The notes beneath the pieces were generated by a model. It searched no databases. It was given only the letters and a program-made list of their open reading frames with translations, and was not told where the DNA came from. 64,000 bases of DNA from Centroberyx gerrardi (taxonomy: Eukaryota; Chordata; Actinopteri; Beryciformes; Berycidae). Shown here in pieces: positions 12,001 to 18,000 of the stretch; the stretch's first letter is position 1; each line of letters starts with the position of its first letter. Where the stretch lies: NCBI RefSeq assembly GCF_048128805.1, contig NC_136000.1:12978854-13042853 (forward strand), written 5' to 3'. Made by a program: the position numbers and the translations under genes.

Positions 12001-15000
12001 AATGCTTAGCCTTTTTGTATCGCTCCCATTTTGAAATGGGACCTGCACATGAGAGTGGTGCTTTGACTTGGACATGGAGTTTTCTTTTTTTCATGGAGAT
12101 GTTCTAAGATGATTTTGCCAACAAAATCCAATTTTTGCGGCCGTTCAGGCTACCAGGATGCATGTTAATGCCAGGTGTAAAGGCCGTTTTAGAGAGGGCA
12201 AGAAAAAATGTAAAGGGATAGTGCAAAAACATCTTCTTTTTAGCTGATCCAAACACAACCATAGTGTCAACAGGAAAGGACACAGACAGGTAGTTCACTC
12301 CTGTTTGTAGCAAAGGAGTGTAGTAAATAGCTTATTCACTGCTCATTGGCTGACAGCTCTCACCTCATTCATTCAAGTATTGGTTCCCCTAGCAACAAAG
12401 AGGCAAATAGAAAAGAAAGAGGTGAGATGGAATCCATTCTTAGAAACCAGTTGAAAAGCAGTTGGGGTGGAGTCGATGGTGAAAAGGTTGTGTGCAAGCA
12501 TCATACCTGAGTTGTATTTTGATTTAGAAACTAAATAATGAACTAGATAGCCTGAATTGACTGAAGATAAATGTCTGCACACTACGTCTAATTGTAATGA
12601 CCCAACAAATAGGCCTGAAATAAGCAGCCTGCTTATTGAAATTCTGCCCCCTTAAATATGCAAATGTTGGGGCGCTCCATGATGGAGTGGAGTAAGTTGC
12701 ATACTTGGGAGTTTAAGCCCGACTCTTTTGGTTCATGTCTCCTTCCTTCTCTCCAATTTTCTCTGTCACTCTCCACTAGTCTATACTGCCAAATGAGGCA
12801 GAATTTCACCGAATGTGTTTGGGGGAAAAATGGGCTACCGGTTAAGTTTTACATTCCCCTCAAGACCTATTTGATTTGTGAAATGACATGTTTGTGCGAT
12901 AAAATTATTAGGTTTTTATTTCGCTTTTATCCCCTCTGGGCAGATTAAGCTAGGCAAATCTCAAGGTAGTATCAGAGCTACACTTAAAATTTTTATGAGA
13001 GGTATACAATGCTTTTCTGTTTGCCATTTCTGTTAAATAATCTCCTCTTGTCCTATTTATTATTTAATTTTTACAGCAAGATGTTGAGAAGTTTACAGAC
13101 ATCGAAAAACTCTACCTCTACCTTAAGTTGCCTTCTGGTCCCAGCAATGGCAATGATAAAAGGTATTGTTTTCACAGCTCCTTCACGTTCATTTTACTCA
13201 AGTATTTCACTTTCCTCATTGGCATTTTTGTCACACACACACACGGCTGTTTTGTCTTGGCTCTCTCGCATTTGTAGCACAGTTGTCTCATTTCTTGTCA
13301 AAAATTGTCATTATCCACCGACTACTTCACAAACAGCTCCTAAAAAATAAATTCAGGTTAGAATTTCTCATGCCTTTGGTTTTATTTTGCTATTAGACTG
13401 TGATCCCCATTGTGATTGTGAAGTTGCTTATTTTGTGACTTGTACTTATGGCATATTGTATATTTTTTTCTGGCTCATTGGTCACTTTTGACTCATTTGC
13501 CTAGTATGAGAGTGTCATTCATTCATCCCAGCTATATGGTTGATTATCATTATGAAGCAATACTATTACTGGTAGATTTTTGCTATACCCAGCTGTCTGT
13601 GTTTTTCATTTGTTTCCCCATATCTATTCATCAACCCCCCAATACTGCACATTAGGACTGAGAATCAGAGGGGGTCCTCCACTCCTGGATTATGGTACTA
13701 AAGTTTCTCTATTAAAGGACAAGAAATCATGCATGTCAGTCAAGGACACTTCCTCACAAGATTTATTTTTTTCTTCATGCACCATTTTAGTGATCAGAGT
13801 TCCATGTCGTCAAGCCGTACTCAACAAATGTATGCATTCAACTGGATACGGAATCACCTAGAAGAGCACCCAGAGACTTCCCTCCCAAAGCAAGAGGTGT
13901 ATGATGAATACAAGTGAGTATGTGAGCTTCATTATGGGGCCAGGAGAGGTGAAGGGGAGCAGAAGTCACCCACAAGTCTTGGAGGCATCACTGTTTCCTA
14001 GTGTGACCTACACAGTATCTCATCTTTTGGTTGAATCCCTACTCTTCCAGGAGCTATTGTGACAATCTCGGCTACAATCCACTGAGTGCAGCAGACTTTG
14101 GAAAGATCATGAAGAATGTCTTTCCCAACATGAAGGCGCGTCGGCTGGGCATGAGGGGCAAATCCAAATATCCTTTCATTCTGATAAAATATCAGTGAAG
14201 CCTTCTTGTGTCTGCCTGTGCTTTTGTTCTGATATTCTGCTGTTGTACTTGCAGAGCGTTCAGACTGCGAGCGCCTTGGTTGATGGGTCGCTCTGTTCTG
14301 ACCAATAGTGGGCGGTGTGAAATGCTCTGATTGCGTCTATGTAGCGGTCTTGTGCAGCTGCAAAGTTTTGAACAGGCAAATCATGTGTTTTTGGTTGGTA
14401 TTGCCTATGTTACGTTGTTTTAACAAGTTAACATAGCTAACTGGCAACCACAAAAATAGACTGTGCTGTGAATAACGCATAGGAAGAGACAAATTACATC
14501 AACAACATGCTAGTGATAAATCCAAACACCTCAAAACTACTAAGGAATTACATTGTTGTTATGTGTAGAGTATTAATTAGTTAATTAATTAGTGAGTAAT
14601 CAAGGGTAATGGAATGTTTTTTTGTTTTTCTTGCTGTTTCAGAGAGATGGCTGTCCATTTCTCTCATTTATGATACAGTATGACACAACATTTATTGTTC
14701 TGAAGGAAATTCCGTTTTCCTGGAAATTCAAACCAGCATAGAAAATATACACTTATCAGTTTGGTCAGCGCATGAAAATGCCTGCACAGAAAATGTTTGA
14801 GAAACGGTTTGAAACAATTTCCGACGTGATGAGTACATCTTGTTTGAAGAACTGTAAACCTCTGTTGCTGCAGGACTATGGCAGACAGGTTTAAAAAGCC
14901 GACCGCAGGAAATCCTTGGCACAGAGCTGAAAAGCTGAACTGAAGATTTTGGTAGAGGTAAACTTCTCACTTGAAACAGGATTTTTAAACAGTTTTTTTC

Positions 15001-18000
15001 TCTCATTGAGAAGCCAGTGCGCCCAGTATGCAGTGGGAAGCAGATTTAAATATTTACAGCTTACTGAGACCCTTCGTACCGAGACACTAGCAGAGGATGA
15101 GAGGAATAGATGAGACACAGAATAAGATCTTGGCCAGACTCAATCTAAAGCCAGCTCCAGCATATTATAACCATCTCTATTTCCAGGGTGATTCACTGCC
15201 AGGTTTCAAAACCTTAACTCATTCTTACATACTGTTATAGTGGGTTGAGGAAGAAAGCTTTTGTTCACATGCCATCTTTACCCAACCTGGATCTGCAAAA
15301 ATCTGGTGATGGGGTAAGTTTCACCTGAAATAACTGTGAACCATTCGCTGGTAAATAAAGTAAATATCCCGCTAGACTTCTAAACTCGTCTAATGCTCCT
15401 CCGCCTGCTGCTCTGCTCTGTCTGACCGTAGTGTGAGTTGATGGAGCCATCGGGTCAGTCGCCCAGCGCCGAAGATGAAATGCGATCCGCAGCCTGTGGC
15501 CTGGTGTGTGAGTGGGCCCAGAAGGTCCTGAGTCGTCAGTTTGACAACGTGGAGGACCTGGCCCGCTTCCTGCTCAATAGCCATTACATCGGTACCAAGT
15601 CCATGGCTGCCCTCACCGTTATGACCGGGACACCCACAGGTGAGGATGCCCTCTGGTCTGCTGGGGTGGCAGCTTTACTGTTGTATAGATTTGCTCCAAA
15701 GATTTTTTTAATTTAATCTATTTTAAAGCTTCCAGGGATGTAGTAGAGGGTAAACCCACCGAAACTCAGTCTAATCCTAACCCTATCCTCTAATTTTCCC
15801 ATTTTTATTTACAAAATAGTTTACCCACCTTTTTATGCTGATGTAAAGTATACATCATAGTCAGCAGTATCAGACTATATTATTTAAAGATGGGGAATTT
15901 AAAGTTAAAAAATGATAAATTATGCTTTTCTAAAAATATAATGGATTTTTGTTTCTGTTGGTGTTTGTTTGATTAGTTAAAAAATACAAGTCTACATTAT
16001 ACTGATTACCTTTGTCTGTCTTTGAGGTGGGGCTTGCCTACCAAGACAAAGCATTTGTTTTTCCTGTTGGTAGATTAATTTTTAAGTGTAATTATTTTAA
16101 CTTTTCTTCTTCTCTTGCCAGGAATGAAGACACCTACTCCAGCTTCTGCGTTTGTGCCCACGGCTGAGGCGAACTCTTTCCAGCCCCAGGTGAAGACCCT
16201 GCCCTCTCCCTCTGTTGATGCAAAGCAGCAACTGCAGCGAAAGATCCAGAAGAAGCAGCAGGAGCAGAAGCTCCACTCACCGCTGCCCAACGAGTGCCAG
16301 GTCAAGAGAACTGAAGCCAGTACCCCTGGTCCCACCATCCCCTGTGGCAGCCCTGCTTTGCTCTCCCCCCAGCCCACCATAGGCATTGTAGTAGCAGCTG
16401 TCCCGAGCCCAATCACGGTATGGGGCTTTGGAAGAAAAAATATACCAGTCTTAATGTTTTTTCCAATCTTCATAGTATTCAGGTATGTTATTGATAAATG
16501 TGCCTAATGTATAAAATTATGTTCTCACTGTTCATTTCCCAGGTACAGAGAAGCAGGCAGCTGATGACCTCGCCCAGTCCTGTAGGCACAGCAGAGGGGA
16601 AAGTGCTGCCTGTGAATTTCCAAGTGGTTACTCAGTCTCTGAAACAGTCCCCCAAAACGCCCCAGAACATCTCAGCTAGTCCCGTGGGTGACCGCCTGGC
16701 ACGGCACCGCTACGCCCAAATCCTGCCCAAGCCCTCTGCCACCAGTGCCATCACGCTGCGCTCGCCCCCCACCCTGCTCATCACCAACAGCCCCATCAAG
16801 ACTGTGATGCCCACTCCCCACGTCAGCTCGGTCAACGTGGTGAAAATGACGGCCATATCTCTGGCTCCCAGCAGCAGTAGTAACAGCACCACCGTCCTGC
16901 GGCCCGCCTCGACTGGTGTGACCACCACTGCTGCTCTAGATGATTCCCTGCACTCCCACAGTGGGACCTTAGCCACCCCCCAATCTCCTGCAATCAGACC
17001 CAGCATCACAGCCTCCACCCTCACCCTCCACGCTGACCCCAAAGTGGTGTCTGAGGCTGGAAGTGACAATAACCCTACCGCTGGCACAGAGAAACAGAGC
17101 GCTATTTCTGCTGTTGGGGCCAAAGATGAGAGAGTGACTAAGTTCAGGGCGGCCAGCGAACCTAGCTTTCTTGTCAAGTGTTCTCCAGGACCTGACAAAG
17201 TGGCCAGGATCAAAAATGACCCCACGTCCCCTCCCACCTCAGTAGCTGTAGCTGGGACCCAGGACAGCAATAACAGTAACTGTCACGACAGTACTTTGTA
17301 CCTGACTGTTGATAATCAGAACTCCAATTGCAGTATGTCATCCAATGGCTCCTCAGCTGTTACCCCGTTGTCTAAGGATTCCCTCTCGGACTCCAAGAGC
17401 CCCAGGAAGCGCACAGGCCCAGGTGTGGAGTCCCATGTGATTCCTGTGAAGAGGGTGTTTATCTCCCAGCAGCCACTGGCTGTAGTTGACAATCCCAAAC
17501 CTGGAGTCAGTGCTGCAGTGAAGAGGATCCCCAGACCGGGAACCCCTGCCAGACCAGAGAGTGCCCCCTGCAAAGTGACTGTGAAACACACCTCCATAGG
17601 GCCCACGCAGATCCTTGCACTCTCCGACTCACCCATCACACACACCGAGGGCTCCCAGACTGTTGTGAAACCCCAGGCCTTGCTGGTGAAACACGAGGAC
17701 CCTTCTCTCAGCACTGACACCAGCACTGCAGCAGCTGGAAACAGCACCTCTGATCAGACGTTGCTACAACAGATCACCGGAAACCCTCGTGCCATACCAG
17801 CCAACTCAGGAGCACACGAAGCCTCTGTGATGAGTGACTTAAAGAGCACAATATGGGAGGAGGGACAGCTTGATGAGCTTCGGAAACAGGCATTTGCTCA
17901 ACAGATACCAGCAGAACACAAACAAGCCCCTACAGACCAACTTGCCATTATAACCCAGACCCCCGAGGCCTCAGGCCAGCTCACCCTTACACAGGAGATG

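Follow-up and report, generated by a model that had tools for sequence, protein, structure and literature searches.

The window analyzed here (64,000 nucleotides) contains on its plus strand a gene model of nine coding exons, which runs from 9030 to 19920 with an open frame of 1484 residues (Table 1). The exons were chosen by sequence words characteristic of RFX7 together with frame and splice signals; the model fits these words, and the gene is putatively the RFX7 member of the RFX family. Its best PDB match is RFX5, and RFX7 itself was named by no database match; Pfam gave no match at an E-value of 0.001 for the open frame containing the last coding exon.

Downstream of rfx7, the plus strand at 26132–33125 holds presumably protogenin-like frames (three scanned) that encode Ig and fibronectin III domains. 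A frame at 46698–46922 resembles Endosulfine/ARPP19 (Pfam Endosulfine, 31.6 bits at a cut-off of 29.8), and the plus strand at 51072–55733 (three frames scanned) encodes a myosin head and IQ motifs, which we assume to belong to a myosin V-like gene. On this reading, rfx7 would be followed in order by a protogenin-like, an arpp19-like, and a myosin V-like gene. A long GT microsatellite at 43228–43410 appears as a (CV)n frame. Searches of the window returned no Rfam structured RNA at the gathering score and no tRNA with ARAGORN (bacterial code).

Table 1. Coordinates of the rfx7 coding exons and of the features of intron 5
Feature	Position	Strand	Basis
Coding exon 1, ATG at 9030	9030–9157	+	Gene model
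Exon 2	9807–9840	+	Gene model
Exon 3	13077–13162	+	Gene model
Exon 4, RFX DNA-binding domain begins	13791–13913	+	Gene model; Pfam RFX_DNA_binding on spliced peptide
Exon 5, last two bases start the Lys163 codon (AA/A)	14051–14167	+	Gene model and homology
Intron 5, putative U12-type AT-AC, phase 2	14168–15228 (1061 nt)	+	Letters read, gene model, placement check
Putative U12-type 5' splice site ATATCCTTT	14168–14176	+	9/9 to donor consensus RTATCCTTT
In-frame TGA reached if intron 5 is retained	14196–14198	+	Letters and frame reading
U12-like branch site AACCTTAAC, second A at 15217	15210–15218	+	7/9 to TTCCTTRAY
3' splice site AC	15227–15228	+	Letters read and placement check
Exon 6, completes Lys163 codon and RFX domain (YCYSGLRKK...)	15229–15313	+	Gene model and homology
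Exon 7	15432–15639	+	Gene model
Exon 8	16122–16417	+	Gene model
Last coding exon including stop	16543–19920	+	Gene model

Seven of the eight rfx7 introns in the model are GT-AG, and intron 5 is AT-AC. A preliminary description of this DNA had called the latter the only non-GT-AG junction among roughly 70; its singularity is verified for the eight rfx7 introns, along with a motif scan of the window, and beyond this range the claim is not borne out. Exon 5 ends with GGC AAA TCC AA, followed by ATATCCTTT from 14168. At the other end, AACCTTAACTCATTCTTAC runs up to 15228, after which exon 6 opens with A TAC TGT TAT AGT GGG; the last four bases of the intron are TTAC, and CATTCTTAC closes at 15228.

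Because ATA occurs to the left and to the right of the joint, intron 5 can be placed in four ways that yield an identical mRNA: 14168–15228 (AT-AC), 14169–15229 (TA-CA), 14170–15230 (AT-AT), and 14171–15231 (TC-TA). None of the four is GT-AG, and only the first is AT-AC. With the AT-AC placement, the joint is in phase 2 and falls within the codon of Lys163. The preliminary description had put it between Lys163 and Tyr164, which would require the TA-CA placement and has to be corrected, although its numbering of the lysine as residue 163 is right for the 1484-residue model. The intron boundaries that it gave, the start with ATATCCTTT, the AC end, and the branch-like site 11 nt from the end were all found in the letters.

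U12-type introns have the donor consensus RTATCCTTT and the branch consensus TTCCTTRAY. Among the 64,000 bases, RTATCCTTT occurs once on the plus strand and not at all on the minus strand, and this sole copy is located where homology places the end of an exon. As a U2-type donor, the same site scores −9.0 (with U2 donor weights), versus 4.1 to 11.3 for the seven GT donors of rfx7. When one mismatch was allowed (8/9 or 9/9), 16 plus-strand sites were found in the window. Judging by eye the 90 bases that precede the other U12-like donors of this strand, we rejected them, as only 14168 ends a recognized coding exon; a donor in the myosin gene near 55045, inspected in its full context, does not terminate an exon. 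The minus strand was covered by the count of perfect matches and by searches with shorter patterns.

The branch region is less distinctive. CCTTAACTC occupies 15212–15220, and the second A of its TTAAC is 11 nt away from the final base of the intron. The first two bases of the branch site are AA instead of the consensus TT. Scores of at least 7/9 are reached by 322 plus-strand and 296 minus-strand sites of the window (∼0.055 per 11-position slot on the plus strand) and likewise in rfx7 introns 2 and 3, and 31 plus-strand sites elsewhere in the window score at least 8. Taken alone, the branch match of intron 5 is weak. The case for a U12-type intron rests on donor, AC end, and branch spacing combined. 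The 3' end of intron 5 also lacks a distinct polypyrimidine tract, in contrast to the pyrimidine-rich neighboring introns (last 30 nt, by eye).

Homology supports the reading frame across the joint. The spliced 105-residue peptide had five distinct matches among PDB sequences at an E-value of 0.01 or better. Two of these, RFX5 (8zjr, E = 1.7e-39) and RFX1 (1dp7, E = 8e-14), cross the joint and align without gaps through SKY, and the matches to two ARID2 sequences and a DNA primase are limited to the part of the peptide before the joint. Pfam identifies the RFX DNA-binding domain in the spliced peptide (PF02257, RFX_DNA_binding, 107.4 bits), and the cut presumably lies at the start of strand β3 of this domain. 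Signals, placement, the RFX5/RFX1 alignment, and Pfam lend good support to the original proposal that a U12-type AT-AC intron interrupts the RFX domain.

On the strength of these sequence features, we assign intron 5 of rfx7 to the U12-type (minor spliceosome) introns of the AT-AC subtype with a probability of about 0.94. According to PMC3584512, binding of the donor and the branch by the U11/U12 di-snRNP of the minor spliceosome is cooperative, and either A can serve as the branch point. In intron 5, U11/U12 would recognize ATATCCTTT and the CCTTAAC branch region jointly, and the lariat would form at A15216 or A15217. Ligation of exons 5 and 6 within the Lys163 codon would rebuild the winged-helix RFX domain. 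The same paper puts the optimal distance from the branch to the 3' splice site at 11–13 nt, a range that includes the 11 nt of intron 5, and notes that these introns have no distinct polypyrimidine tract. Phase 2 agrees with PMC7367187 and PMC10639083, which report that minor introns tend to avoid phase 0.

Intron 5 thus resembles vertebrate U12-type AT-AC introns in its donor, its ends, the branch distance, the absence of an evident pyrimidine tract, the non-zero phase, and its position as a single such intron among GT-AG neighbors, and it differs only by AA for TT at branch positions 1 and 2. It is an ordinary member of this class, and perhaps it is already contained in U12 catalogues. According to PMC6717393, the AT-AC subtype accounts for about 24% of minor introns in mouse and 22% in human. 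U12 introns usually have orthologues in other vertebrates, and PMC2831892 reports that 156 of 180 clusters are conserved across all eight lineages. Most likely, the intron is ancient and constitutively spliced and does not act as a switch. Minor introns of the E2F and PROX families, as treated in PMC6865273, likewise interrupt transcription-factor genes; RFX is absent from the main text of that paper, although it may be listed in databases or supplements.

Should intron 5 be retained, the frame stops nine residues after Lys163, and the protein would lack the final part of the winged helix and everything downstream. That failed removal would destroy the DNA-binding domain, as the preliminary description holds, is a sound inference. 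A stop codon with introns downstream usually leads to decay of the mRNA, and since three further introns lie past this stop, decay of the retained form is to be expected. The retained form still scores 95.2 bits with the Pfam RFX_DNA_binding profile (positions 2–75 of 79), and the profile score is therefore no gauge of the damage. In human RFX1, the strands β2 and β3 and the wing W1 touch the DNA major groove (PMC8998557); given these contacts and the premature end of the frame, loss of DNA binding upon retention is likely.

Compatible with the U12 reading is a further proposal, in which slow or variable U12 splicing of intron 5 sets how much functional Rfx7 is made and thereby links the Rfx7 targets to the activity of the minor spliceosome. 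The early stop within the DNA-binding domain would suit such a valve, and PMC3584512 presents a proposal that U12 splicing is slow enough to be rate-limiting. However, PMC12332006 reports that RNPC3 knockdown raised retention in about 10% of minor introns (0.08% of major introns), so the sensitivity of any single intron cannot be assumed. Minor introns are sensitive as a class, but an individual member need not be, and the title of a study covering over 3000 genomes attributes much of the evolution of minor introns, tentatively, to neutral processes (PMC10639083). Intron 5 must be removed. The dependence of the functional Rfx7 level on U12 splicing put forward in the preliminary description is conjecture, and we consider it improbable that removal of the intron is a limiting or controlled step. 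It is slightly less probable still that limiting U12 splicing yields Rfx7 cut inside the DNA-binding domain, with a fall of its targets, and that loss of RFX7 contributes to the phenotype of minor-spliceosome disease.

The interest of such a link is that RFX7 has been described as a p53-activated tumor suppressor (PMC11344851). If its DNA-binding domain requires the minor spliceosome, RFX7 would be a candidate for a part in minor-spliceosome disease and could serve as an easy readout. A search of the open literature, with U12 databases and supplements outside its scope, found no pairing of RFX7 with a minor intron, U12, or the minor spliceosome, and there is no occurrence of “rfx” in the main texts of PMC9501576, PMC7367187, PMC6717393, PMC6865273, PMC8034651, PMC12332006, PMC13216214, PMC2831892, and PMC10639083. 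Both RFX7 and intron retention occur in PMC13336137 and PMC6440956, several times or in title and abstract, and these papers could include a mention of a retained RFX7 intron.

The major spliceosome could instead use a nearby GT-AG or GC-AG pair, which would give a slightly altered protein. That it removes some AT-AC introns, as PMC6717393 states, counts against the U12 reading, and enumeration around the joint yielded 17 in-frame, stop-free GT/GC-AG pairs with donors starting at 14052–14268 and acceptors ending at 15099–15298. The two nearest in length, 14195–15249 and 14195–15240, would add 2 and 5 residues, respectively. These pairs, however, replace all or part of YCYSGLR, which is mostly common to RFX5, and their shared donor at 14195 does not rank among the eight top-scoring U2-type donors found in exon 5 or intron 5. 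Among the 12 of the 17 pairs listed, sorted by length change, the remaining 10 lose at least 12 residues, and the other five pairs rank behind these in the sorting. We rejected these alternatives, and splicing at such a pair appears very unlikely. That the AT-AC ends reflect an assembly error or a non-functional copy of the locus is hardly credible, as the model has seven GT-AG introns and an uninterrupted frame of 1484 residues, and the odd ends go together with a U12 donor that matches the consensus perfectly.

Other joins can be read from the U12-type model of intron 5. Joining exon 4 to exon 7 is predicted to lead to an early stop, with DEYNVS preceding the stop codon. An AG at 15239–15240, 12 nt beyond the AC acceptor, preserves the frame; if it were used with the donor at 14168, YCYS would be dropped and Lys163 would become Asn.
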